DNA from: Spirochaetaceae bacterium
GTDB lineage: Bacteria; Spirochaetota; Spirochaetia; Treponematales; Rectinemataceae
Assembly (NCBI GenBank): GCA_025355995.1
Contig: JANXYQ010000066.1
Location: 1-32,222 of the forward strand
Reading direction: 5' to 3'
DNA length: 32,222 nt
Shown: positions 6,821 through 19,322 of the stretch, piece after piece
Layout of the letters: every line of letters starts with the position of its first letter
Position numbering within the stretch: the stretch's first letter is position 1
Translations under genes and position numbers: made by a program
Notes under the pieces: model-generated
What the model was told of the DNA's origin: nothing
The model's input: the letters and a program-made list of their open reading frames with translations, nothing else
The model's database searches: none

Positions 6821-8605
6821 ATGGCCGCCAGCCTCTTCAAGCGCAGCCTCCTCCTCCTCTCCGCCGCCGTGCTCGCCGCCGCCCTCGTCTTCGCGGCCGT
6901 GGGCCTGGGGGTCCTCGGCGAGGCCTATTCCAAGGCCAACGCGAGCTCCCTGTCGCGCTCGGCCTCCGCCCTCGCGGCCGCCTTCCCCCCGGCCCTCCTG
7001 GCCGACTCGGGCGAGGCCGCCGACTTCGCCAAGAGGACGGCCGCGAGCGGCTATCGCGTCACCCTGATCGTCGCCGACGGCAGGGTAGTCGCCGACAGCG
7101 AGGCCGATCCCCGGTCCATGGAGAACCACGCGTCGAGGCCCGAGGTGGCGGCTGCCCTGGCCGGCGGCTCGAGCGGCGGGAGCGCAGGCAGCCGCAGGAT
7201 GTCGGCAACCCTCGGCGAGGAACTCCTCTACGCGGCGGCGCCGATCCGCGGCGGCTCCGGAATAGTCGGCGTGCTCAGGCTCGCCCTCCACGAGCCGAGC
7301 CTCGAGCGGTCCCTCGCGCCCTCGCGCTGGAACTTGGCCCTCGCCTCCCTCGCCTTCGCGGCCGCCGCCATCGCGGCGGCGGCGGCCTTCAGCCGCATGA
7401 CGGCGCGGCCCTTGGCCTCTCTCGCCAGGGCGGCGCGCCAGTACGGATCGGGCGACGCGCCCGGCCCCGGGGCCGGGCGCGCCCTGCGGCCGGAGGATCC
7501 CGAGGAGATCCGCCTCCTCGCCTCGACCCTCGATTCCATGGCCGCAGAGATAGGCTCGCGCATGGTCGCGGCGCAGGCCCAGGGCAAGGAGCTCGAGGCC
7601 ATCCTCGACGCGATGGCCGAAGCCGTCCTCGCCCTCGACTCCGATCTCCGGATAACCCTGGCCAATCCCGCGGCCATTTCGCTCTTCTCCCCCGGGGAGG
7701 GAATGACGGGCAGAAGCCTCCTCGAGGCTACTCGCTCGAGCGACCTGCAGGCCGTCGCGGCCGGCTGCCGCGAGTCGGGCGAGGACCGCAGGATGGAGCT
7801 ATCCCTCTACGCGCCGGCCGAGCTTTCCTACCAGGCCTTCGCGACCCCTCTACGCGGGTCCTCGGACGAGGGGAAGGCCGGGGTCGTCCTCGTCCTCAAC
7901 GACATCACCGAGCTGCGGCGCCTCGAGCGCGTGCGCAGGGACTTCGTCGCCAACGTCTCCCACGAGCTCCGGACTCCGGTCCAGCTGGTCAAGGGCTTCG
8001 CGGAGACGCTGGAGGAAGGCGCGTTGGACGATCCCGAGCAGGCGCGGCGCTTCGTAGGCATCATCGGGAAGAACGCGGCCCGGATGGAGAGCCTGATCTC
8101 CGACCTCCTCTCGCTGGCCGCGCTGGAGCGGGAGGGAAGGGAACGGATCGCCGCCGAGCGCGCGGACCTGAGGACCGTCCTCGACGCGGCCCGCGAGGCC
8201 ATCCTGCCCAAGGCCGAGGCGCGGGGGATCGAGCTGCTCGTCGAGTGCGAGAGCGGGCTATCCGCCGAGCTGGACCCGGGCCTCATCGAGCAAGCCCTCG
8301 TCAATCTCATCGACAACGCCGTGAAGTACTCGCCCCCCGCCACCGCCGTGCGCGTCAGCGCGCGCGCGGAAGGGCCGTCCCTCGTCATCGAGGTCCGCGA
8401 CCAGGGCATAGGCATACCCGCGCGCGACCTGCCCCGCGTCTTCGAGCGCTTCTACCGCGTCGACAAGGCGCGCTCGCGGGAGCTCGGCGGCACGGGACTC
8501 GGCCTCGCGATAGTGCGGCACATCGCCATCGCCCACGGCGGCGAGGTCTCGGTTGAGAGCTGGGAGGGAGAGGGCTCCACCTTCAAGATCAGGATCCCGC
8601 GTTAA
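6821..8605 (+). CDS. phoR: PhoR-type sensor histidine kinase
   Basis: The 594-residue membrane kinase is the expected partner of PhoB. TM1 spans about 8-33, an extracytoplasmic domain follows to about 168, and TM2 spans about 170-190. Then come a HAMP-like linker, a PAS domain (about 255-350, LEAILDAMAEAVLALD), a HisKA domain with phospho-acceptor H381 in VSHELRTP, and an ATPase domain with N-box NLIDNAVKYSPP (about 496), DQGIGIP and GGTGLGLAIV. E. coli PhoR lacks the sizeable periplasmic loop; this layout is closer to Gram-positive PhoR. The frame is open far upstream, but ATG 6821, five bases after the phoB stop with AAGGA ahead of it, is the sensible start. Its 3' end overlaps the convergent gene by 3 bases. 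Confidence 0.93.
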   Translation: MAASLFKRSLLLLSAAVLAAALVFAAVGLGVLGEAYSKANASSLSRSASALAAAFPPALLADSGEAADFAKRTAASGYRVTLIVADGRVVADSEADPRSMENHASRPEVAAALAGGSSGGSAGSRRMSATLGEELLYAAAPIRGGSGIVGVLRLALHEPSLERSLAPSRWNLALASLAFAAAAIAAAAAFSRMTARPLASLARAARQYGSGDAPGPGAGRALRPEDPEEIRLLASTLDSMAAEIGSRMVAAQAQGKELEAILDAMAEAVLALDSDLRITLANPAAISLFSPGEGMTGRSLLEATRSSDLQAVAAGCRESGEDRRMELSLYAPAELSYQAFATPLRGSSDEGKAGVVLVLNDITELRRLERVRRDFVANVSHELRTPVQLVKGFAETLEEGALDDPEQARRFVGIIGKNAARMESLISDLLSLAALEREGRERIAAERADLRTVLDAAREAILPKAEARGIELLVECESGLSAELDPGLIEQALVNLIDNAVKYSPPATAVRVSARAEGPSLVIEVRDQGIGIPARDLPRVFERFYRVDKARSRELGGTGLGLAIVRHIAIAHGGEVSVESWEGEGSTFKIRIPR

Positions 8606-9330
8606 CGCCTCAGGAAGGCGGCCTCTCCCTCGGCGTCCACCGATACGAGGAGCTCCTCCCCGCTTCCCAGGAAGCGCCACAGGCCGACCGGCAGCTGGGC
8701 GACGCAAGCGCCCGCGCCCGAGACGGACCCGGCCGGGGCGAAGGGGCTTTCCGGCGCCCAGGGGCCGGGGCCGGGAAGGCTCACGGCGAAGCGGCGCGGC
8801 AAGCCGAAGGCGTCGATCCTGAAATCGCGCTTGGCCAGGGCTTCCGCCGTACCGAGGGCTGGCCGTAGCCAGGGATCCCCGCAGCGCCTCGTCGCCTCGA
8901 CGGCCAGCCTGGAAAGGTCGTAGGCCCAGGGGTCGATCCCCGCTCCCGAGAGCGCCAATGCGAGGCTCGCGGCATAGCCCCCGGTCCAATCGAGGCTCAG
9001 CCTATCGCCCTCGGATACTCCCTCGGGATACAGCGCCCCCGCCGGCATGAGCCCCCTGCCCGCGGAGGAGGGCAGGGCGAGGATGGCCTGGGGCAGACCG
9101 CGCTCGACCTCGATGCTCAGCTCGGAGCCGGGCTGCGCGAGGGCCGAGACGAGGCGCCCGCCGGGGCCTCTCCAGGTGAGCGCCATGCGCTGCTCGGGCA
9201 GTAGGGCCCAGGTCGGAGGGAGGGAGGGGACCGCGAGGAGGAGCTCGTGGCGGCCTGCGGGGCCGTAGGGCGAACAGGGGCAACAGGAGGCGAGGAGTGC
9301 GGCGAGCGAAAGCGAGGGGAGAGCCTTCAT
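8602..9330 (-). CDS. Predicted lipoprotein of unknown function
   Basis: The 242-residue protein begins with a lipoprotein signal (hydrophobic core about 5-15, lipobox LASC with C16 followed by another Cys), so it is likely anchored to the envelope. I recognise no domain. The mature part is rich in Pro, Gly, Leu and Ala, with many aromatic and Gly positions suggesting a beta-rich fold. The stop overlaps the convergent phoR stop. Upstream of the ATG there is no Shine-Dalgarno; instead TATACT lies five bases ahead, suggesting leaderless transcription. It is divergent from the next gene. Confidence 0.72.
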   Translation of the reverse strand: MKALPSLSLAALLASCCPCSPYGPAGRHELLLAVPSLPPTWALLPEQRMALTWRGPGGRLVSALAQPGSELSIEVERGLPQAILALPSSAGRGLMPAGALYPEGVSEGDRLSLDWTGGYAASLALALSGAGIDPWAYDLSRLAVEATRRCGDPWLRPALGTAEALAKRDFRIDAFGLPRRFAVSLPGPGPWAPESPFAPAGSVSGAGACVAQLPVGLWRFLGSGEELLVSVDAEGEAAFLRR

Positions 9331-9335
9331 GAAGG

Positions 9336-9341
9336 AGTATA
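9336..9341 (-). promoter_or_regulatory. -10 hexamer TATACT, 5 nt from the lipoprotein ATG
   Basis: On the minus strand TATACT is followed by five bases and the ATG at 9330. Transcription would begin at or next to the start codon. I see no good -35 at 16-18 bp upstream. Confidence 0.4.
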
Positions 9342-9393
9342 GCGCGGGGGGAGCCCCGCGGCATGAGGCTGGAGGCGGAAATCGGTCCCCGGC

Positions 9394-9422
9394 TTGCCTC
9401 GGAGGAAATTTTACACGATACT
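9394..9422 (+). promoter_or_regulatory. Candidate promoter TTGCCT-N17-GATACT
   Basis: TTGCCT (9394-9399) and GATACT (9417-9422) each match the sigma-70 consensus at 4 of 6 positions, with an ideal 17-bp spacer. The -10 ends nine bases before the ATG at 9432, so the mRNA would have almost no leader. Confidence 0.4.
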
Positions 9423-9431
9423 CGATATACC

Positions 9432-10391
9432 ATGGAAGACTCGCAGGCCTTCTCGCTACAGCTAGAGGAACGGCTCGACGCGAGGCGAGAGAGGCTGGAC
9501 CTCGCCGAGCTGCAAAAGCTGAAGGAATTTTTCAAGAACTTCCAATCGGCCTTCATCGGGATGAACGCGGTCCTCCACAAGAAGGGCGTGCTCCACGACG
9601 ATCCCTACCGCTACGACCTCAAGATATCGGACGTGAAGACCCCACCGGAGAGCCCCTTCTCGGAATCGGAGAAATCCGACCAGATGAGCATGAGGGTGGC
9701 CCAGTTCGAGGCCTACCTCGATTTCCTCAATAATTACTACCAATTCAGCTGCGATTTCCTCACGATGGGCCGCATCAAGCGCGTCCTCGCCCTCGTCAAG
9801 TACTACAATTTCTCCCAGTTCACCGATACCAGCACCCAGCTCAACACGAGGGCCCTCGCCGAGATCGCCGGCACCATCAAGAAGGGGAGCGATCAATTCT
9901 CCGCCGGCCTCATCGCCGACTCGGTAGCCCAGCTCGACAAGCTGAGCCGCGAGATACTCGCCTGCCTGAAGGAGCTGACGGACTATCATAAAGAGCGCTA
10001 CAAGCTTGAGCTGCGCCAGATCGTGATGCCCGGACTCCCGATAGACGCCGACCTCGCGATCGGCAAGAGGGACGAGGCGCTCAGGCTGGTCAAGCGCAAA
10101 TTCTCCGAGGTTTCCTCCGAGAGACCTTTCTACCCCGAGCTCGTCGAGGAGGTCCTGAACGAGGATTATTCCTCCGACGGCCCGTCCCTCCGCGAGGACC
10201 TTCTGCGGCGCTTCGCCCCGGCGGAGGCGAAGAAGGCCGACGACTCGCAGGCGAAATCGTACAAGGGCCTGCTGCTCGACGGCATCCGCTCCCTGTCCGG
10301 CGCCTCCTTCGCCCTCGAGGAGGTATCGCGAAGCTCGAGGAGGACTCGGTCCTGCTCTCGTCCTTCGACCAGGGCCTGGGCGCGCGCCTGA
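9432..10391 (+). CDS. Frameshifted hypothetical protein, N-terminal part
   Basis: This is the 5' portion of a gene that continues in another frame to 10852. It is mainly helical, charged and cytoplasmic in character, with segments such as QKLKEFFKNFQSAFIGMNAVLHKKG and LDFLNNYYQFSCDFLTMGRIKR; I recognise no named family. Good sequence ends at about 10322 (FALEE). After that this frame turns into Ser/Arg-rich nonsense and stops, while the frame that takes over at 10325 reads IAKLEEDSVLLSSFDQGLG without a break. One missing base between 10320 and 10325 explains it. An in-frame ATG at 9363 with GGGGAG upstream is an alternative start, but codons between 9363 and 9432 are unlike the rest of the gene. 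Confidence 0.7.
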   Translation: MEDSQAFSLQLEERLDARRERLDLAELQKLKEFFKNFQSAFIGMNAVLHKKGVLHDDPYRYDLKISDVKTPPESPFSESEKSDQMSMRVAQFEAYLDFLNNYYQFSCDFLTMGRIKRVLALVKYYNFSQFTDTSTQLNTRALAEIAGTIKKGSDQFSAGLIADSVAQLDKLSREILACLKELTDYHKERYKLELRQIVMPGLPIDADLAIGKRDEALRLVKRKFSEVSSERPFYPELVEEVLNEDYSSDGPSLREDLLRRFAPAEAKKADDSQAKSYKGLLLDGIRSLSGASFALEEVSRSSRRTRSCSRPSTRAWARA

Positions 10392-10396
10392 AGCGG

Positions 10397-10852
10397 ATGA
10401 TACGCAAGCTCTTCGCGCCCGAGGACAAGGGCCTCGTCTACGAGGTCGAGTTCGTGGATCCCGTCACCAAGGCCTGCGCGACCGAGGAGCTGGACTTCCG
10501 CGCCTTCGTCGCGGAGACTCTAAAAAAGGCCCGATTCCTCTCCTCGCTCTCGCAGCGCGGGGGGCCTTCGGCGAAGCGCCTCGAGGGGATGACCGACGAT
10601 CACGCCTACAAATTCCTGCAGCGCAACATCGAGGAGCTGCAGAGGGCGTTGCGCGTCCTCGCGGCCCTCGAGGAGTTCTTCAAGTCCGAGGTGCCCGGCG
10701 AGGCGAAGGCCCGCGTCAAGGGAGTCCGCGGCGAGATAACCACGGTCAAGGGTGCCGTGATCAAAGCCAACCAGAAGAAACACGAATACGTGGCCCAGTG
10801 CGAGGAGCTCGAGCAGATGAAGCGCCTCGGCATCAAGGATTCCGCACCGTAG
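10397..10852 (+). CDS. Frameshifted hypothetical protein, C-terminal part
   Basis: This is the 3' portion of the preceding gene. Coding-like sequence actually begins at 10325, upstream of this first ATG, and joins the N-terminal part without gap or overlap. The fragment has about 151 residues and is helical and charged (ITTVKGAVIKANQKKHEYVAQCEELEQM near the end). The restored protein would have about 473 residues. The two halves are otherwise clean, so a sequencing or assembly error, or a very recent mutation, is more likely than two genes. Function is unknown. The next gene starts 28 nt downstream on the same strand. Confidence 0.65.
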   Translation: MIRKLFAPEDKGLVYEVEFVDPVTKACATEELDFRAFVAETLKKARFLSSLSQRGGPSAKRLEGMTDDHAYKFLQRNIEELQRALRVLAALEEFFKSEVPGEAKARVKGVRGEITTVKGAVIKANQKKHEYVAQCEELEQMKRLGIKDSAP

Positions 10853-10880
10853 CGAGTCGCTGACGACCCAAGGAGAAAGC

Positions 10881-12503
10881 ATGAAACCAAGGATACTTGC
10901 GATAGCGGCCATGGCGCTCGCCATCGCCGCCGCGCCGGCGGCGATGGCGGCGCAGGCGGCCGACGAGGTGCCGAAGCCCGAGGAATTCGTCGCCGCCTTC
11001 AACGTCCTGGACCTCCAGCTCGACCCCCACCACTCCATCTACTCGGCGGAGGCGCAGATCTTCACGGCCGTCTACGAGGGGCTCTTCTCCTACGACCCCA
11101 ACAGCCTCGACCCGGTGAAGGCGGCCTGCCGCTCGTTCACCCGCTCGCAGGACGGGAAGACCTACACCTTTTACATCCGCGACGAGGCCCGCTGGTCCGA
11201 CGGCTCGCCCCTCCTCGCCCGCGACTTCAGGGACGCCTGGCTGCGCGCCATCTCCCCCAAGACGAAGGCCGACTACGGGGAATTCTTCGACATCATCGCC
11301 GGCGCCCACGACTACCGCACGGGCAAGACGGCGGATCCCTCCTCCGTCGGGATCTCGGTCATCGCCGACAAGATCCTCCAGGTGAAGCTCGAGGCGAGGA
11401 CGGACTATTTCACGCGCCTGCTCTGCCACCATTCCTTCTCGCCGATCCACCCCTCGATGCTCGCGGCCAAGGATTGGCGCGCGGCGCTGCCCTTCCCCGG
11501 GAACGGGCCCTATGCCTTCTCGTCCTTCGACTCCTCGGGGCTCCTCTTGGTCAAGAACGAGAAGTACTGGGACGCCGCCTCGGTCAAGATCCCCCGCATC
11601 CGCGCCGTCTTCACGGACGACGACGCCGACGCCACCAGGCGCTTCGACGACGGGTCCCTGCACTGGCTCGCGGGGCCCATGGACTTCAACGCCCTGCTCG
11701 CCCAGGGATCGATACAGGTAGGGCTCATGTTCAGCACTCATTACTGGTTCTTCGATTGCGGGAGCGCGCCGTGGTCGGACCGCGACGTCAGGCGGGCCCT
11801 CGCCCTCCTCCTTCCCTGGGACCAGATCCGCGCGAAGGACAAGTACCTCGCCCCCGCGACGACCCTCGTACTGCCCTACGCGAGCTACCACGGGGCAAAG
11901 GGCTTCGCCGCGGCCGACCAGGAAGAGGCGATGCGCCTCCTCGAGAAGGCGGGGCACAAGAACGGGGCGGGCCTGCCCAAGCTGGCCACACTCGTGCCGG
12001 AGGGCAGCGACGACGCCAAGCGCGTGTCGGGCCTCATGAAGGAGGCCTGGGAAAAGCTCCCCGACCTCGTCGTCGAGCTCAAGACCGTCAGCGCGGCTTC
12101 CTACTTCTCGGTAGTCCGGTCCGGCCCCGAGGCCGGCGGCTGGACCCTCTCCTCGACGAGCTGGATCGGCGACTTCTCCGATCCGGTAGCCTTCCTCCAG
12201 ATGTGGGCGGCGGATTCCAACCTCAACGACGCCCGCCTCTCCGACCCCGAGTTCGACCGCCTCCTCGGCGTCGCCGCGGCGAAGACGGGCGACGAACGCT
12301 TGGACGCGCTCGGCCTGGCCGAGACGCGGCTCCTCTCCGGCGCCGCCGTCCTGCCCATCTATCATAGCCTCGCGGCCAACGTCATCGATACCGACTACGT
12401 CGACGGCTGGTACCCGAACGCCCTCGACATCCATCCTTTCAAGTACCTGTCCTTCGGCGAGCGAAGGGTGCGCGCCAACGTCGCCATGGCGATGGCGAGG
12501 TAG
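10881..12503 (+). CDS. ABC transporter substrate-binding protein, family 5 (oligopeptide/OppA type)
   Basis: The 540-residue protein has an Ala-rich signal peptide (about 1-24, AMA-AQA) and no lipobox, so it is a secreted or periplasmic solute-binding protein. The family-5 signature is clear: VYEGLFSYDPNSLDPVKAACRSF, the block RDEARWSDGSPLLARDFRDAW, and a C-terminal TDYVDGWYPNALDIHPFKYLSF. Such proteins deliver oligopeptides or related solutes to a dipeptide/oligopeptide permease. No permease or ATPase gene lies nearby, so it is an orphan subunit. AAGGAG sits 7 nt before the ATG. The following gene begins one base after its TAG. Confidence 0.88.
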   Translation: MKPRILAIAAMALAIAAAPAAMAAQAADEVPKPEEFVAAFNVLDLQLDPHHSIYSAEAQIFTAVYEGLFSYDPNSLDPVKAACRSFTRSQDGKTYTFYIRDEARWSDGSPLLARDFRDAWLRAISPKTKADYGEFFDIIAGAHDYRTGKTADPSSVGISVIADKILQVKLEARTDYFTRLLCHHSFSPIHPSMLAAKDWRAALPFPGNGPYAFSSFDSSGLLLVKNEKYWDAASVKIPRIRAVFTDDDADATRRFDDGSLHWLAGPMDFNALLAQGSIQVGLMFSTHYWFFDCGSAPWSDRDVRRALALLLPWDQIRAKDKYLAPATTLVLPYASYHGAKGFAAADQEEAMRLLEKAGHKNGAGLPKLATLVPEGSDDAKRVSGLMKEAWEKLPDLVVELKTVSAASYFSVVRSGPEAGGWTLSSTSWIGDFSDPVAFLQMWAADSNLNDARLSDPEFDRLLGVAAAKTGDERLDALGLAETRLLSGAAVLPIYHSLAANVIDTDYVDGWYPNALDIHPFKYLSFGERRVRANVAMAMAR

Positions 12504-12504
12504 C

Positions 12505-13488
12505 ATGAAAAAGACCCTTGCGGACCTCCTGTTCGTATTCCTCGGCCTGCCCGTCGCCCTATCGGCCCTCTTCCTCGTGTCGGTGAGGCCCCTTGCCCTC
12601 GACCGCGAGACCTATCGGCGCTTCGTCGAGGACGACAGGCTGTACTCCGCGCTGCAGGCGCCCGAGATGGCGGCCCGCGCGCCGAAGACCATTTCCATCG
12701 GGCCGGCGATTTTCGACGGCCCCGCCCTGACCGCGGCGCTACAAAAGAGCCTTCCCGTCCCCGAGCTCAAGGAGACCGGATCGCGCGCGATCGACGCGGC
12801 CCTGGGAGCGGCCGAGCGCGGCGTTGCCGGCTTCCCCCTCCAGCTCGACCTGAAGCCCCTGAAGGCGGCGCTGCGGGCAAAGGGTCCGGCCATGGCGCGA
12901 GACTACGCGGCGGCGCTCGCCGGCGCGAATGCGACGGCCAAGGGGCCGGATGCGCTCAAGGGAGCGGACGCGGCCAAGGCTATCGTCGCCGCAGTCGACG
13001 CCCTGCCCGACACTGCCACCGCCCAACCCCCGGCGCCCGGCACGAGGCGGATAGGCGGCCCGATAGGAGTCCTGTCGAGAGGCCCGGACCTGAGCGGGCA
13101 GGGCCTCACCCAGGCCCTCCTCAACAGGATGACGGCGACGACGGCCGCCGCCGCCGCCCTCCTCCTGGCGGGCCTCGGCGCCCTCGGGGGCACGGGCCTC
13201 GTCTCGAGGCTCTCTCGCGCGGGCAGGTACCTCCTCGTCCCCTCGGCCCTCGTCCTCGCCCTGGGCGTCGTCCTAGCGATACCCGGCGGCCTCATCCTGC
13301 AGAACGTCCTCCCCCGCGAGTTGCAGGGAATGATCGGGGGCGCGGGCGGCGCCGCGCTGAAAGCCTACCTCGCGAGCGCGCTCGGCCCCGTGGCGCGGGC
13401 TTTCTTCGTCACCGGCCTCGTCGGCGCCAGCCTGGGCGGCGTCCTCGCGCAGGCCAGGCGCTTCGCGGAACCCAAGGAACTGGAATAG
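12505..13488 (+). CDS. Hypothetical inner-membrane protein, four TM segments
   Basis: The 327-residue protein has one N-terminal TM segment (about 9-28), a soluble loop of about 180 residues that is probably extracytoplasmic, and three closely spaced C-terminal TM segments (about 209-320). The loop is Ala/Pro-rich near its end. I recognise no domain and no catalytic motif. It is packed between the oligopeptide-binding protein (one-base gap) and the thymidine-kinase-like gene (starts immediately after its stop), so the three are probably co-transcribed. A link to the binding protein is possible but not shown. Confidence 0.7.
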   Translation: MKKTLADLLFVFLGLPVALSALFLVSVRPLALDRETYRRFVEDDRLYSALQAPEMAARAPKTISIGPAIFDGPALTAALQKSLPVPELKETGSRAIDAALGAAERGVAGFPLQLDLKPLKAALRAKGPAMARDYAAALAGANATAKGPDALKGADAAKAIVAAVDALPDTATAQPPAPGTRRIGGPIGVLSRGPDLSGQGLTQALLNRMTATTAAAAALLLAGLGALGGTGLVSRLSRAGRYLLVPSALVLALGVVLAIPGGLILQNVLPRELQGMIGGAGGAALKAYLASALGPVARAFFVTGLVGASLGGVLAQARRFAEPKELE

Positions 13489-14649
13489 ATGGCCGAGCCC
13501 TCCCGCGTCGCGGGCGAGGCGAGCGACGCGATGGGCGACCTGGGCGACGCATCGAGCCTCCTGCGCAACCTGGGCTACCCCAGGCTGCGGGTGCACCATC
13601 CCTTCAACCATTTCGACTTCACCCGCCCCGGCAGGCGCATCCTCGTCATAGGCCCGATGGGTTCGGGCAAGACCGAGTTCTCCGCGCGGATGTGGCGGGA
13701 CAGCAGGGTGGCCATGGCCAAGACCGGGGCTGCCCGGAGCTCGGCGACCACCGACGGGGCCGACAGGCGGGACATCTTCGTCGTGCGCTCGAGCCTGGAC
13801 TCCGCGCGCTTCCCCGACTATCCGGCCGACGCCCTCGCGTACCGCGGCGGCTACGAGCGCTGCGGCGACAGGATCGGGCAGGCGAGCGATTCCTTCGCGC
13901 TCGAGAGACTCCTCGCGGAGAACCCCGGCGTAGGGACCTGGATTGTCGACGAGGCCGCCTTCTTCGATGAGCGACTCGCCTACCTCATGAGGGATGAGTC
14001 GCTCCGCCGCGGCCTCGTGTTCGTGTGCCCCACCCTCGTCCTCAATTTCCGCAGGGAGATATTCAACCAGACCGCCCGCCTCATCCTCGACATAGCCACC
14101 GACGTCTTCCCCCTGACCGCCTACTGCGAGCAGGCCGAGTGCCTCGCGGACTCGCTGTACACCTATAGGTACTACCTAGTGGACGGGGTGGAATGCCCGG
14201 CCCCCTACTTCGATCCCCTCATCATCATCGGGGGCGACAGGACGAAAGAGGACGGCCGCGAGCCGAACTACTGCACGCGCTGCGACGAGCACCACTACCT
14301 GCCGGGCAAAGAATACACCTTCTTCACCCTCAAGCCCATGGGCGAGGCGGCCGCCCGCGGCGACCTCAAGCCCCTGCTCGCCGAGCTGGCCGCGGTAGCC
14401 GGCGGATCCGCCGACTCGAGGCTGGCGACGAGCCTGCGGGCCCGCCACCTCGAGTGCCGCGATCCCTGCCCCGAGATGCTCGAGTCCCTGCGCCTCCCCT
14501 GCCTCGCGGAACGCGAGCTCGCCTACCTGTTCGCGGAGCAGAACCTGCTCTCGGCGGAGCAGCTGCGCTCGATCGTCGCCGACCTGGGCCTCGACCGCGA
14601 GTACCTCATGAGGCGGCTCAGCGACAACAGGCGGCCGATGGAGCTGTAG
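13489..14649 (+). CDS. Thymidine-kinase-like protein (type II TK fold), extended
   Basis: The 386-residue protein resembles zinc-containing type II thymidine kinases, which phosphorylate thymidine with ATP in the salvage pathway, but is about twice their usual length. It has a P-loop GPMGSGKTEF (about 55-62), a Walker-B-like DEAAFF (D154, E155; DE-A/Q-FF in TKs), and a lasso/zinc region with C213, C218, C262 and C265 flanking IIIGGDRTKED. A further roughly 110 residues follow with two Cys pairs. An N-terminal extension of about 45 residues precedes the P-loop. Family assignment is fairly sure; thymidine as substrate is inferred. The ATG follows the upstream stop directly. Confidence 0.8.
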   Translation: MAEPSRVAGEASDAMGDLGDASSLLRNLGYPRLRVHHPFNHFDFTRPGRRILVIGPMGSGKTEFSARMWRDSRVAMAKTGAARSSATTDGADRRDIFVVRSSLDSARFPDYPADALAYRGGYERCGDRIGQASDSFALERLLAENPGVGTWIVDEAAFFDERLAYLMRDESLRRGLVFVCPTLVLNFRREIFNQTARLILDIATDVFPLTAYCEQAECLADSLYTYRYYLVDGVECPAPYFDPLIIIGGDRTKEDGREPNYCTRCDEHHYLPGKEYTFFTLKPMGEAAARGDLKPLLAELAAVAGGSADSRLATSLRARHLECRDPCPEMLESLRLPCLAERELAYLFAEQNLLSAEQLRSIVADLGLDREYLMRRLSDNRRPMEL

Positions 14650-14657
14650 GGACCGGC

Positions 14658-14685
14658 TTGGCTTTCGCGAGTTAGGCGATATAAA
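14658..14685 (+). promoter_or_regulatory. Candidate promoter TTGGCT-N16-TATAAA for the MFS gene
   Basis: TTGGCT (14658-14663) and TATAAA (14680-14685) are spaced 16 bp apart. The -10 ends nine bases before the ATG at 14695, and no Shine-Dalgarno fits in that interval. Confidence 0.5.
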
Positions 14686-14694
14686 CTGCCGCCC

Positions 14695-15954
14695 ATGGGA
14701 AAGAAGAATCGTCCCGAGCCACTGCCGCGCGCCATCCGCTACCTATTCCTCGCGCGGCTAATCAATTCCGCGGGCAGCTTCGTGATGCCCTTCATGACCA
14801 TGCTGCTCACGGTGAAGCTCGGCTGGGCGTCCGACAGGGCCGGGCTCTTCATGACCCTCATGTTCCTGGCCGGCGGCGCGGGCATGCTCGCGGGCGGCAA
14901 GATCGGCGACAGCGTCGGCCGCAAGCGCCTCATAGTATCCTGCCAAGCGGGATCGGCCGCGCTCTTCCTCGCCTGCTTCGCCCTCGGCGTCGGCCCCGCC
15001 CTCCCCTACCTCGCCGCGGGGTCCAGCATTCTCCTGAGCTCGACATGGCCGGTGTTCAACGCGATGGTCGCCGATATCGCGCCGCCGGACAAACGGCGCC
15101 GAGCCTATTCCCTCATCTACTGGGGCAACAATATCGGCTTCTCGCTCGGCCCCATGGCCGCGGGCTTCCTCTTCAACAGGGCTACACCCCTCATGTTCCT
15201 CTGCAACGCCGTAGCCCTCGCCTCAGTCTCCTGCATCCTCGGATTCTGCGTAAGGGAGACCCTGCCGGCCGCAGCCGTCGCGGCCGCCGAGCAGAAGGCC
15301 GGGGCGGCGCCCGACCCCGCGCCGGAGGCCGCGGAGAGGGGCGGCATACTGGCCGTCCTTGCGAGCCGCCCGCTCCTCCTCGCCTTCGCGCTCGCGCTCG
15401 CCCTGCTCAACCTCGTCTACGCCCAGCACCAGTTCAGCCTGCCCCTATTCCTCGAGGCGCGGCTCGGCCAGGCGGGACCCTCGGCCTTCGGTGCGGCGAT
15501 GACGGCCAACGGCCTCACGGTGGTCGCCTGCACCATCCCCCTCGCCTTTCTCTCGAGAAGGCTCTCTCCCCTCGCCTGTATGCCGATAGCCGGGATGCTC
15601 TACGCTGCGGGCTTCGGCCTGCTCGCCTTCCTGCCCTCGGGAAGCGGGGCCGGCCCGCTGGCCCTCGTCCTGGGGTCGACCTTCGTCTGGACCCTCGGGG
15701 AGATACTCGCGGCCACCAACGTCAACGCCTTCATCGCGTCGCGCTCGCCCGCCAGCCACCGATCGCGGCTCAACTCCCTGGTTTCGCTCATCGCGCAGTC
15801 GGGGTCGATGCTCTGCCCCCTCGTCTCCGGGAGCTTCATCGCCGCGCGCGGCTCGGCGGCGGTCTGGCCCGCTGCAGCCTGCCTCGGCCTCGTCGGCTCC
15901 GCGCTGATGGCGGCGCTCTACCTGGCGGACCGCTCGAGGGTCAGGGCCGAGTGA
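14695..15954 (+). CDS. Major facilitator superfamily (MFS) transporter
   Basis: The 419-residue integral membrane protein has about 12 hydrophobic segments. The loop between TM2 and TM3 reads GGKIGDSVGRKRLIV, the MFS motif G-x3-D-x2-GR-(K/R). A cytoplasmic linker (about 190-215, Ala/Pro/Glu-rich) separates two six-TM halves. The TM5 region (NNIGFSLGPMAAGFL) resembles drug-efflux MFS proteins, but the substrate cannot be read from the sequence. There is no Shine-Dalgarno; a promoter ends nine bases upstream. Its 3' end overlaps by 14 bases the end of a decayed gene on the other strand. Confidence 0.9.
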   Translation: MGKKNRPEPLPRAIRYLFLARLINSAGSFVMPFMTMLLTVKLGWASDRAGLFMTLMFLAGGAGMLAGGKIGDSVGRKRLIVSCQAGSAALFLACFALGVGPALPYLAAGSSILLSSTWPVFNAMVADIAPPDKRRRAYSLIYWGNNIGFSLGPMAAGFLFNRATPLMFLCNAVALASVSCILGFCVRETLPAAAVAAAEQKAGAAPDPAPEAAERGGILAVLASRPLLLAFALALALLNLVYAQHQFSLPLFLEARLGQAGPSAFGAAMTANGLTVVACTIPLAFLSRRLSPLACMPIAGMLYAAGFGLLAFLPSGSGAGPLALVLGSTFVWTLGEILAATNVNAFIASRSPASHRSRLNSLVSLIAQSGSMLCPLVSGSFIAARGSAAVWPAAACLGLVGSALMAALYLADRSRVRAE

Positions 15955-16650
15955 CCTTCCGGATGCGGTTGTTGCCGCCGTCCGAGAAATAGATGCTGCC
16001 CTTCGCATCGACCGCTACGTAGGTTGGGCTGGGAAGCGAAGCCGATTTGGCGGCGCCCCCGTCCCCGGATTTCCCGGGCTGTTCCCAATTCCCCGCGACC
16101 GTCGAAATCGTTCCGGCGATAGCGATTTTCCTGACGCGGCAACCCCCCCACGAAATATATTTCGCCCGAGGGTACGATAGTCACGCCCATCGGGTAGGCG
16201 AGCCGTACGGAAGTCGTGGGGGGCGTCCAGCATCGCGGAAATCGCCGGACCCTCGTCTCCCTAGAAGCCTGCGGTTCCGGTTCCCGCTATCGTCGAGATG
16301 ACCCAGTCCCACTTTGCGAATATCGTCGTATCCCCGAGAAGGACCAATTCATCACCCTCGAAGTAGTCATAGCCGCCGCCATCCGCCTCTCGGTTCCAGC
16401 AATAGAATGCGTAACCCGACTTCCCGAGCGACCCGCTATTACCGAGCACGATCGCGCTTGTCACGATATCGTATTACCTGGCTTCTGCGTGTACGGAGCC
16501 GCTCTTCGCTCCGTTCGCGTCATAGGTCAACATATCAGAGCAGGTGGCCGACGATCCCCCCGCATCCGAGGAGCGAAATGGCGATCGCAGCAAAGCCGAG
16601 CACGAGGAAAAAAGATCGCGCGCGAGCGATTCGTTCGGGATTCTTCTCAT
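15941..16650 (-). pseudogene. Decayed lipoprotein gene with Listeria-Bacteroides repeat and NHL repeats
   Basis: On the minus strand an ATG at 16650 with GAGGAG upstream starts a signal peptide whose frame breaks once, then continues as FFLVLGFAAIAISLLGC, a lipobox. Next comes a Listeria-Bacteroides repeat remnant (LTYDANGAKSG, then SGYAFYCWNREADGGG, ending FAKWDW). NHL-type segments follow: VISTIAGTGTAGF, MGVTIVPSGEIYFVGG, STVAGNWEQPGKSGDGGAA and VAVDAKGSIYFSDGGNNRI. Reading the whole needs frame changes near the signal peptide, at about 16215 and at about 16145, and passes in-frame TAA and TAG codons. The intact ancestor was a surface lipoprotein with a repeat-adhesin-like domain and a beta-propeller-type end. 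It is clearly non-functional as it stands. Confidence 0.75.
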
Positions 16651-16696
16651 GGTCCAAACTCCTCGAAATATTCCTTTCCGTTTTTCGCTGGCCGCG

Positions 16697-17917
16697 CTAG
16701 GCCGAAAGCTCCGCCTCCGCCGCTTTCAAGAAGGCCTCGACGCCCGCCGTATCGGGGAATACCGCCCTGAACGAGGCGCCGCCGCCCCCGCCCTTCCCCC
16801 CGGACCCTGCGAGAAGGGGCTTCAGCCTCTCGCCGAGCCGTGCCTCGGGGCTAGGAGCCAGGGCCTGGACCGTGAGCTCGGGGAGCGAGGCGAGGAGGGA
16901 ACAAAAGCCGAGGGAAGCGAAGGCCTTGGCGCTCTCAATCAGCGAAGCGGCATCCCTGTCGGCGTAGCGCCGCGAGACGAGCCTGGACGAGCCCTCCGCG
17001 GGAGTCCCGTCAGCCGAAAGCGCCTCCGCCGCGGAGCGCGCCTCCGCGTTGGCCCTCTCCCGGACCAGGACGCCGTTGGCGTACTCGAGGGCCCTGCGCC
17101 TCTCGGCCTCGCGCGCGACGGCGGCTGGCAGCTCGGCCACCGAGGTCCCGAGGATCCGCGCGGCCGATTCCGCGATGCGCGAAACCGCGCGGTAGTCGGC
17201 GGCCGCGGAGGCCCCGGCCGCGAAAAACAGCCGGGTCATGCCCTTGTATCTCTCGGTCCCCAGTATGCGCAGGAGGCGGAGCCTTCCGGTCGAGGATAGA
17301 TGCGTGCCGCAGCAGGGAGTGAAGTCGATCCCATCGATCTCCACTATGCGCAGCTCCTGGGCCCCAGCGGGCGGACGCTTGCGCAGGGGGAAGGAGGCGG
17401 GATCCTCGGGCGGGCAGAGGTGGACGCGAATGGGGTAGTCGTCGGCGATAATCCCCTCGATCAGGCTCTCGGCCTGGGCGAGGCCTTCTTCGGATACGGA
17501 GGCAATGTCGAAGTCGATGGAGCTGCGCTCGCGGCTCAGGTGTACCGAGACGGTCGCGGCGTCGAAGAGCCGCATGAAGGCCGAGGAGATAAGGTGCTGG
17601 GCCGAGTGGGCCTGGGAATAATCCAGGCGTCGCGCTCCATCGACCGAGAGCGCCGCCCGATCGCCGGGCCGCAACGCGACGGGCCCGGCCAGGCCGTGGA
17701 GGATTCGGCCGCCGAGGCCCTCCTCCTCCGTGACGGCGGCGACTCGCGCGCCGCCGAGGAGGCCGAGGTCGCAGGGCTGGCCACCCCCTTCGGGATAGAA
17801 GATGGTGCGGTCGAGCTCGAGGACGGGCCCGTCGGGATCGCCCTCGACGGCGACCACCGTCGCCTCGGTTTCCAGGAGCTCGGGCCTCGCGTAGAACAGC
17901 TTCTCGGTCTTCGCCAT
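16697..17917 (-). CDS. AlaX-type alanyl-tRNA editing protein
   Basis: The 406-residue protein resembles the editing half of alanyl-tRNA synthetase without the catalytic core. Such proteins hydrolyse Ser- or Gly-mischarged tRNA-Ala in the cytoplasm. It has the N-terminal FYPEGGGQPCDLG block, the zinc ligands H104 and H108 in HSAQH, and CCGTH (C203, H206) followed by the LSSTGRL stretch. A C-terminal DHHA1-like tail contains GGKGGGGG. This is the long, AlaX-L-like form. The frame is open upstream, but MAKTEKLFYARPELL at ATG 17917 is the natural start, with TACAAT six bases upstream and no Shine-Dalgarno. It is divergent from argA. Confidence 0.88.
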   Translation of the reverse strand: MAKTEKLFYARPELLETEATVVAVEGDPDGPVLELDRTIFYPEGGGQPCDLGLLGGARVAAVTEEEGLGGRILHGLAGPVALRPGDRAALSVDGARRLDYSQAHSAQHLISSAFMRLFDAATVSVHLSRERSSIDFDIASVSEEGLAQAESLIEGIIADDYPIRVHLCPPEDPASFPLRKRPPAGAQELRIVEIDGIDFTPCCGTHLSSTGRLRLLRILGTERYKGMTRLFFAAGASAAADYRAVSRIAESAARILGTSVAELPAAVAREAERRRALEYANGVLVRERANAEARSAAEALSADGTPAEGSSRLVSRRYADRDAASLIESAKAFASLGFCSLLASLPELTVQALAPSPEARLGERLKPLLAGSGGKGGGGGASFRAVFPDTAGVEAFLKAAEAELSA

Positions 17918-17923
17918 GGCCGC

Positions 17924-17929
17924 ATTGTA
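17924..17929 (-). promoter_or_regulatory. -10 hexamer TACAAT, 6 nt from the AlaX-type gene ATG
   Basis: TACAAT on the minus strand matches the sigma-70 -10 consensus at 5 of 6 positions and is followed by six bases and ATG. There is no convincing -35 within the 46-bp divergent gap. Confidence 0.45.
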
Positions 17930-17951
17930 GCGCAAGCCCGGCGCGATCGAA

Positions 17952-17957
17952 TATACT
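17952..17957 (+). promoter_or_regulatory. -10 hexamer TATACT, 6 nt from the argA ATG
   Basis: TATACT matches the sigma-70 -10 consensus at 5 of 6 positions and is followed by six bases (GCCCCC) and ATG. The placement mirrors that of the divergent neighbour; there is no Shine-Dalgarno. Confidence 0.5.
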
Positions 17958-17963
17958 GCCCCC

Positions 17964-19322
17964 ATGAGCGAGGATATCACGTCGAGGCGCGAGGAGACCG
18001 ACCTGATCAGGGAGGTTTTCGTCTACGCCCATAGGTTCATGGGCTCGGTCTTCGTCTTCCGCATCGGGGCCAGGCTCATGGACAACCCAGGCTTCCCGGG
18101 GCTCGTCGGTGATCTCGCCCTCCTCCACGAGAATGGCATCAAGATCATCCTCGTGCCCTCGGGCGGCGCCAGGATAGATGAGCTCCTCGCGATCTACGGC
18201 ATCGCGACCGAGCGGGCCGAAGGCCTGCGCATCTCCACTCCGGAGGCCATGCCCCTCATCCAGATGGCCGCCTTCGACACCGCGACGCGGCTCATGAACC
18301 AGTTGGCGCGCAACAAGGTCGAGGCCGTCGTCGGCAACTGGGTGCGGGCGCGATCCTACGGCGTGCGCGACGGCATAGACTTCCAGGCCACCGGCATGGT
18401 CGACAAGGTCAACGTCGAGCTCATCCGCCGCTCGATCGAGGACGACTTCGTGCCCATCCTTCCCTGCATCGGCTGGAGCGCGGTCGGCGAGCCCTACAAC
18501 ATCTCCTCGGTTGAGCTGGCGACCGAGCTGGCCGTGGGCCTGAAGGCGCACAAGCTTTTCTTCCTCACCGACGGCGAGCTCTTCTCCTCCGGCGGCATCA
18601 AGCTGCCCACCGAGGGCGTGGCCTTTCGCGGGGAGGCCGTAAGCCGGATGACTGTCCAGGCCGCCGAGCGCGCCCTCGCTGACAACCCCGACAGCCTGGA
18701 CCGCACGGAGCGCGACATGCTCGCCCATTCGGTGACCGCCTGCCGCTCGGGCGTCGAGCGCGTGCACTTCCTCGACGGGGGCCTCGAGGGCTCCGTGCTC
18801 AAGGAAGTATTCTCGACCCTGGGCTCGGGAACGATGGTGCACGCCGACCCCTTCGAGAACATCAGGCCGATGACGGAGGAGGACATCTCCGACGTCCTTC
18901 GCCTAATGGAGCCCCTCGTGCAGCAGGGCAACCTCGTGCGCAGGACCGAGGGGGACCTCCAGGACCGCCGCGCCGACTACGCGGTATTCGAGACCGACGG
19001 AACGATCCGCTGCTGCGGCGCCCTCCATCGCTACGGAAGCTCAGGTGCTCCCTCTTGGGGGGAGATAGCCGGCCTCGCCGTGGACATGAGCTACAAGCAC
19101 ATAGGCATCGGCCATAGGATGATCGGCTTCCTCATCGAGGAGGCCCGACGCCTCGGCCTGACCGGCGTCTTCGCCCTGACGACCCGCACCTCCGACTGGT
19201 TCCTGAGCCTTGGCTTCTCGCCGGCGACAGTCGACGACCTGCCCGAGGAGCGCCGGCTGACCTACGATACGGAGAGGAAGAGCAGGATATATTCCCTGGC
19301 ATTGAGGGATGGCCCGAGATAG
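17964..19322 (+). CDS. argA: N-acetylglutamate synthase, ArgA type (amino-acid kinase + GNAT)
   Basis: The 452-residue protein makes N-acetylglutamate from glutamate and acetyl-CoA, the first step of arginine synthesis. The N-terminal part (about 1-290) is an amino-acid-kinase-like domain (IILVPSGGARIDELL, later KLFFLTDGELF and VHFLDGG). The C-terminal part (about 300-445) is a GNAT domain with IAGLAVDMSYKHIGIGHRMI as acetyl-CoA motif, FALTTRTSDWFLSLGF and a terminal block around RKSRIY. Length and order match E. coli ArgA (about 443). No other arginine gene is in the window. In ArgA the kinase-like domain carries the feedback arginine site; whether that holds here is not visible. Confidence 0.88.
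   Translation: MSEDITSRREETDLIREVFVYAHRFMGSVFVFRIGARLMDNPGFPGLVGDLALLHENGIKIILVPSGGARIDELLAIYGIATERAEGLRISTPEAMPLIQMAAFDTATRLMNQLARNKVEAVVGNWVRARSYGVRDGIDFQATGMVDKVNVELIRRSIEDDFVPILPCIGWSAVGEPYNISSVELATELAVGLKAHKLFFLTDGELFSSGGIKLPTEGVAFRGEAVSRMTVQAAERALADNPDSLDRTERDMLAHSVTACRSGVERVHFLDGGLEGSVLKEVFSTLGSGTMVHADPFENIRPMTEEDISDVLRLMEPLVQQGNLVRRTEGDLQDRRADYAVFETDGTIRCCGALHRYGSSGAPSWGEIAGLAVDMSYKHIGIGHRMIGFLIEEARRLGLTGVFALTTRTSDWFLSLGFSPATVDDLPEERRLTYDTERKSRIYSLALRDGPR

Follow-up and report, generated by a model that had tools for sequence, protein, structure and literature searches.

The uncultured Spirochaetaceae bacterium studied here (family Rectinemataceae) very likely makes mRNAs with no leader or almost none, alongside a dominant Shine-Dalgarno (SD) mode, as judged from the sequences compared below. 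In the window, the whole stretch of 32,222 nucleotides that was analyzed, direct reading of five gene starts revealed a -10-like hexamer 5 to 9 nt 5' of the ATG in all five (5/5), and in none of them (0/5) did an SD-like tetramer lie in the stretch from the hexamer to the start codon. SD sites were present at other genes of the window, e.g., at the starts at 1259, 10881, 20518 and 31606 (the last on the reverse strand). The initial annotation had proposed that the five genes give leaderless mRNAs and that two modes of initiation coexist. The coexistence was borne out, with SD and -10-adjacent starts in the same window and a swap between the two among orthologues of gltX and argA, and the leaderless reading gains support from genome-wide enrichment and from orthologues. 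This support is uneven over the five genes: three are conserved in near relatives, the argA case is lineage specific, and the lipoprotein gene has neither a -35 box nor conservation. A search of the window against Rfam gave no RNA family at gathering score. A consensus promoter scan (at least 9 of 12 matches) of positions 9000 to 18500 returned 0 matches, with 0.8 expected, and does not favour the reading of these hexamers as leaderless promoters; a consensus that strict misses these promoters.

The genome-wide signal was determined in a sample of 0.97 Mb of the genome, comprising 624 ATG starts that were called from coding score alone. TANNNT peaked 12 to 13 nt before the ATG, with 51 of the 624 starts carrying it there, and 100 dinucleotide shuffles gave a mean of 11.5 at these positions (standard deviation, 3.5; maximum, 20). 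Chance would account for about 11 to 12 of the 51, and therefore single genes are uncertain; the lipoprotein gene may be one such match. For the set as a whole, we rejected the notion of chance matches in a region read with promoters in mind as extremely improbable, since the shuffles never exceeded 20 and orthologues of the gene at 9432 and of gltX conserve the layout. A TTG was found 17 to 18 nt upstream of the hexamer at 17 of the 51 TANNNT starts, compared to 13 of the 573 others and to 5/103 when seven other A/T hexamers at this position were used as a control; the remaining 34 of the 51 had no TTG at -35. The complete pair, TTG-17/18-TANNNT ending 6 to 8 nt before an ATG, occurred 24 times. 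These TTG counts, together with all orthologues of the 9432 gene (see below), argue that the hexamer is a promoter element with a paired -35. Over the whole genome, TATAMT-N5-7-ATG occurred 102 times, versus 44 times at the control spacing N14-16, and TATAMT-N6-ATG 49 times, versus 9 times for the reversed pattern. TATAMT-N5-7-GTG showed no clear excess (32 versus 25 at N14-16), but the excess expected for GTG is too small to judge. In G413, another genome of this genus, TANNNT was present at -12 in 14 of 264 ATG starts, with some 3 to 4 per position elsewhere. Hence, the check that the initial annotation had suggested, a genome-wide count of suitably spaced -10 hexamers, was positive in the sampled genome, in the whole-genome patterns and in G413. 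Leaderless-type starts amount to roughly 6 to 7% of the ATG starts in the genome.

TANNNT starts belong to the first genes of transcription units: they made up 27 of 172 starts next to a divergent gene and 15 of 107 behind a gap of 30 to 100 nt, compared to 5 of 244 behind a gap of less than 30 nt. The low count behind gaps of at least 100 nt (3 of 80) fits a first-gene position poorly, and wrong calls may be behind it. That several of these genes lie behind a codirectional neighbor (the 15 of 107) is what one would expect if a leadered transcript from a second, more distant promoter did the main work, with the adjacent -10 supplying just a part of the mRNA. This arrangement is quite unlikely, since the longer transcript would meet starts that are mostly devoid of an SD site; an SD tetramer was present at 6 of the 51. 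When the hexamer position was blanked, an SD site was found in 4 of the 51 TANNNT starts and in 36 of the 573 others, and thus the scarcity of SD sites in the 51 is mostly positional exclusion. A 16S rRNA, from which the anti-SD could have been read, was not found in the assembly.

The best-conserved layout is that of a hypothetical gene on the forward strand (9432..10391, interrupted near 10322), whose orthologues align from the Met at 9432. Its -10, GATACT (9417..9422), ends 9 nt before the ATG and is preceded at a distance of 17 nt by the -35 TTGCCT (9394..9399). In an alignment, TTGC-N17-SATAMT-N6-10-ATG was kept in 11 of 11 members of the family, and in each of them C or G replaces the first T of the hexamer, giving [CG]ATA[AC]T at 6 to 10 nt from the ATG. 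The probable transcription start is A9429. Of the 11 orthologues, 6 have an A exactly 7 nt after the -10, followed by 2 to 3 nt to the ATG, which would fit a leader of about 3 nt. Transcription might thus generally begin 2 to 8 nt before the ATG and give near-leaderless mRNAs with very short leaders, to which another way of 30S binding may apply, and the distance between hexamer and ATG does span 5 to 10 nt. As a general rule this is unlikely, because with the spacing of the main genome-wide peak, 6 to 7 nt, the usual +1 falls on the A of the start codon.

The gene for an MFS transporter (14695..15954, forward strand; Pfam MFS_1) had been assigned TATAAA (14680..14685, 9 nt before the ATG) as its -10 in the layout said to be shared by the five genes. 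When all five were reread, a hexamer 5 to 9 nt before the ATG without an SD site stood in each, but the MFS hexamer had to be corrected: the overlapping TAAACT (14682..14687, 7 nt; -10 region, 14680..14687) is probably the better candidate. The -35 TTGGCT (14658..14663) lies 18 nt before TAAACT and 16 nt before TATAAA, and TANNNT is found at 7 to 8 nt in the three closest orthologues, the window's own copy counted. On the reverse strand, the AlaX-type (alanyl-tRNA editing-like) gene (16697..17917; Pfam tRNA_SAD) has TACAAT (17924..17929) 6 nt before its ATG at 17917, and TA[CG]AAT at 5 to 8 nt was seen in 7 of 20 loci inspected, including the window's own. The lipoprotein gene (8602..9330, reverse strand) is the weakest of the five cases. 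Its TATACT (9336..9341), 5 nt before the ATG at 9330, has no TTG 17 to 18 nt upstream, and inspection of 10 other loci showed no clear counterpart; this hexamer may be a chance match.

The argA-type gene (17964..19322, forward strand), encoding an amino acid kinase and a GNAT domain, has TATACT (17952..17957) 6 nt before the ATG at 17964. The adjacent -10 was absent in the five orthologues inspected; the argA of the same genus has an SD-like run instead, and its gap to the same divergent neighbor is 93 nt, compared to 46 nt here. For gltX, 3 related genomes have an adjacent -10 and no SD site (3/3), whereas all 24 other relatives (24/24) have an SD site and no adjacent -10. Several of these 24 retain a TATACT-like box upstream of the leader. 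Relatives thus appear to show single genes, one of them essential, switching between leader and no leader. A tentative explanation, which we rate slightly on the doubtful side of an even balance, is that leaderless starts arise in the lineage when a gene loses the SD leader it had and an ordinary promoter comes to abut the ATG, and that essential genes tolerate this. If so, the gltX and argA pairs are natural experiments on the switching of translation mode. In both genes, the same start codon is served by an SD leader in one genome and by an adjacent promoter in another, which allows a single gene to be used for comparing the two modes. Among 21 usable pairs of orthologues chosen without bias from this genome and G413, the layout was present in both in 2, here only in 1 (argA) and in neither in 18; 4 further pairs had no start codon near the projected place. 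The set is too small for a rate.

The conservation of start codons also bears on whether the promoters are real but the true starts lie further downstream, behind an ordinary leader. Calling by coding score can indeed overextend genes, as it did with the AlaX-type and 9432 genes. Yet the start codon is common to the orthologues of the 9432 gene (11/11), gltX (27/27) and argA (4/5), and wrong starts would blur the peak, which is sharp to 1 to 2 bases relative to the ATG. Misplaced starts are therefore very unlikely and were rejected for the set as a whole; neither this rejection nor that of chance matches extends to each gene individually. The preferred reading is that of leaderless or nearly leaderless mRNAs, in which a sigma-70-type promoter would abut the gene and RNA polymerase would start at the A of the ATG or within about 0 to 3 nt of it. 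The resulting mRNA, with its 5' end at the position predicted from the -10, would have no SD leader, and ribosomes would presumably enter at the 5'-terminal AUG. The promoter boxes, their spacing and position, the genome-wide excess, the conservation in orthologues and the replacement by SD leaders in others are direct observations. Annotation tools that expect an SD site easily misplace the starts of such genes.

Leaderless expression is a known mode and has already been predicted and mapped in spirochetes, so that its description as less documented in this phylum, made in the initial annotation, has to be amended: both a prediction (PMC3160421) and a map of transcription start sites in Leptospira (PMC5243855) are published. 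Zheng et al. (2011) predicted TA-led genes in 6 of 18 spirochete genomes, with a mean of 3.9% and a range of 1.8 to 6.9% (PMC3160421). Their signal, a TANNNT located some 12 bp 5' of the start codon and evaluated with dinucleotide shuffles, is the one seen here; in the present case, it is found in an uncultured GC-rich lineage, and -35 boxes, conservation in orthologues and the exchange with SD leaders at single genes are added. In Leptospira interrogans, about 440 transcripts start within 10 nt of the start codon, around half of them within 2 nt, as reported by Zhukova et al. (2017) (PMC5243855). There, start sites were mapped and no -10 motif was found, whereas the lineage studied here shows a clear sigma-70-type motif in its sequence. 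According to a 2025 study, Deinococcus-Thermus has the same arrangement, with a -10 a few base pairs before open reading frames, an optional -35, leaderless mRNA and SD genes alongside, but it covers about 30% of the open reading frames and was tested with reporters, compared to fewer genes and sequence evidence here (PMC12340547).

The sequence signature of leaderless expression is strong in this uncultured spirochete family and extends, by a spacing-controlled count, to other families of the order. This count covered 178 of 392 genomes: families f1, f3 and f4 in full, the first 32 members of f2 and selected genomes from other families, so that the ratios are partial for every family except f1, f3 and f4. 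In a GC-rich genome of another family (G063), the sample of 70 ATG starts is too small for a position profile, but TATAMT-N5-7-ATG occurred 52 times in the whole genome, versus 11 times at N14-16.

The initial annotation had claimed a -10-like hexamer 5 to 9 nt ahead of the ATG, without a Shine-Dalgarno (SD) site, for five genes between positions 9330 and 17966. Indeed, reading of the sequence bore this out for all five: the lipoprotein gene (ATG 9330, minus strand), the hypothetical gene at 9432 (plus strand), the MFS gene (14695, plus strand), the AlaX-type gene (minus strand; the start codon is ATG 17917) and argA (17964, plus strand). The TATAAA assigned to the MFS gene is present at 9 nt, but the overlapping TAAACT at 7 nt is the better candidate. 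No gene was called in the ca. 740 bp between the MFS and AlaX-type genes (15955-16696), which is unusual where genes are otherwise closely packed, and the product of 13489-14649 (386 aa) weakly matches part of a thymidine kinase domain (7e-07).

Genome-wide enrichment of such hexamers had been proposed as a check, and it was found. The assembly (4.50 Mb, 138 contigs, 95% complete; the window is contig 116) was sampled regardless of motif by taking up to 20 kb from the beginning of each of contigs 1 to 60 plus the window, 972,685 bases altogether, and genes were called with a simple coding score that chooses starts independently of upstream signals. Among the 795 genes called, 624 had an ATG start with at least 70 nt upstream. 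Of these starts, 21 had TANNNT beginning at -13 and 30 had it at -12, compared to about 8 per position farther upstream, and TATAMT was found 4 times at -13, 8 times at -12 and 0 to 2 times at other positions. The 51 starts with TANNNT at -12 or -13 compare with a mean of 11.5 (standard deviation, 3.5; maximum, 20) in 100 dinucleotide shuffles; at -11 to -14 there were 70 starts, whereas nine control offsets averaged 25.6. The excess amounts to some 6 to 7% of the ATG starts in the sample, which, scaled up to the whole genome, would correspond to about 200 genes. Whole-genome counts agree: TATAMT-N6-ATG occurs 49 times and the reversed pattern 9 times, and spacings of 5 to 7 nt (N5-7) occur 102 times versus 44 for the control spacing of 14 to 16 nt (N14-16). 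The same TANNNT peak, with 14 at -12 and about 3 to 4 per position elsewhere, is present in a congeneric genome, G413 (457,747 bases, 264 ATG starts).

The hexamers have the character of promoters. In 17 of the 51 starts, the hexamer is preceded at 17 or 18 nt by the -35 element TTG, whereas TTG was found at these distances in 13 of the 573 other starts and in 5 of 103 pooled cases in which one of seven other A/T hexamers occupied that position. In 24 cases the TTG-17/18-TANNNT pair ends at a distance of 6 to 8 nt from the ATG, with 0 to 3 at other upstream offsets. TANNNT-type starts made up 27 of 172 divergent starts and 15 of 107 starts lying 30 to 100 nt behind a codirectional gene, compared to 3 of 80 with a gap of at least 100 nt, 5 of 244 packed within less than 30 nt and 1 of 21 at an edge. 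An SD tetramer precedes 6 of the 51 hexamer starts versus 309 of the 573 others, but with the hexamer positions blanked the numbers are 4/51 and 36/573; since the hexamer occupies the usual place of the SD site, the low count is mostly mechanical and was excluded as independent evidence. The genes concerned are ordinary: when 20 of the 51 were scanned against Pfam, 19 gave a match, and these include an alanyl-tRNA synthetase, regulators, histidine kinases, Cas2, and transport and sugar enzymes. Most likely, these are sigma-70-type promoters set so that transcription would begin at, or within a few nucleotides of, the AUG, and the resulting mRNAs would be leaderless, with ribosomes recognizing the 5'-terminal AUG. 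The putative promoters and their position are read from the DNA itself; transcript ends and ribosome entry we infer from established knowledge of leaderless mRNAs.

The most interesting part of the finding is the exchange of leaders in gltX and argA. The gene gltX, encoding glutamyl-tRNA synthetase (Pfam), is one of the 51, and the position of its start codon is conserved in all 27 loci that cover the N terminus (30 family loci, L193 to L222). TATACT lies 6 to 8 nt before the ATG, without an SD tetramer, in three of them (the window's genome, G413 and G399), whereas each of the remaining 24 has an SD tetramer and lacks a -10 hexamer at 6 to 8 nt; several of these 24 carry TATACT, TATAGT or TATAAT some 20 to 50 nt upstream. 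Thus, both layouts interchange on one essential gene. In G413, argA has kept its divergent AlaX neighbor, but the two start codons are 93 nt apart compared to 46 in the window, and an SD-like run lies upstream of argA, which suggests that a leader was lost in the window's genome or gained in G413. A scan of named genomes found the argA hexamer in none of five orthologues; the ATG is at the same place in four, and SD-like purines are present in some.

Orthologues of the other four genes were sought in 30 family genomes. For the 9432 gene, which has no Pfam match, the arrangement TTGC, 17-nt spacer, [CG]ATA[AC]T, 6 to 10 nt and ATG is present in all 11 loci covering the N terminus (the window's included; the fragment L092, which lacks it, was left out) and is kept down to 51% protein identity. 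This promoter lies in the divergent intergenic region shared with the lipoprotein gene (9331-9431), and the first T of its -10 hexamer is replaced by C or G. Since an A is found 7 nt past the -10 hexamer and 2 to 3 nt short of the ATG in 6 of the 11 loci, the mRNA of this gene may carry a short leader (about 3 nt) instead of none. Its reading frame is interrupted (10121-10391): the intact orthologue L082 (473 aa) matches 9432-10322 and then another frame to 10849, which points to a genuine frameshift or to an error in the assembly. The AlaX-type gene has TA[CG]AAT 5 to 8 nt before the ATG in 7 of 20 inspected loci, the window's included, and not in the other 13. For the MFS gene, the comparison covered the three of 20 loci with at least 59% identity (the window's included), all with TANNNT 7 to 8 nt before the ATG; identity in the remaining 17 is 35 to 42%. 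The lipoprotein hexamer had no clear counterpart in the other loci inspected (11 of 20, the window's included); in the orthologue L143, TATTAT precedes a candidate ATG by 4 nt.

This kind of system is already known, and the window's genome adds a member. Zheng et al. (PMC3160421) describe a TANNNT signal about 12 bp ahead of the start and, for spirochetes, list 6 of 18 genomes as having such predicted genes, with a mean of 3.9% (range, 1.8 to 6.9%). The same arrangement was reporter tested in Deinococcus-Thermus (PMC12340547), whereas here it is deduced from sequence. A literature search of limited coverage found no study on leaderless genes in the window's order. N5-7:N14-16 ratios for TATAMT-ATG were obtained from 178 of 392 phylum genomes. 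The window's family reached 1.64 (5 genomes), and three further families of its order reached 1.57 (11 genomes), 1.40 (16 genomes) and 1.40 (32 genomes). Outside the class, values near 1.0 were obtained for several families, which were covered in part (f29, 1.01; f49, 0.99; f38, 1.04; f34, 0.99), but this is no proof of absence because an AT-rich background dilutes the ratios and because Leptospira interrogans (PMC5243855) has ca. 440 measured transcripts that begin no more than 10 nt from the start codon, with no -10 motif detected there. Six genomes, G063, G271, G320, G342 and G379 of family f3 and G011 of f31, have a spacing-specific excess of TATAMT ahead of ATG above that of the window's genome, with N5-7 versus N14-16 counts of 93 versus 22 in G320 and 87 versus 31 in G011.
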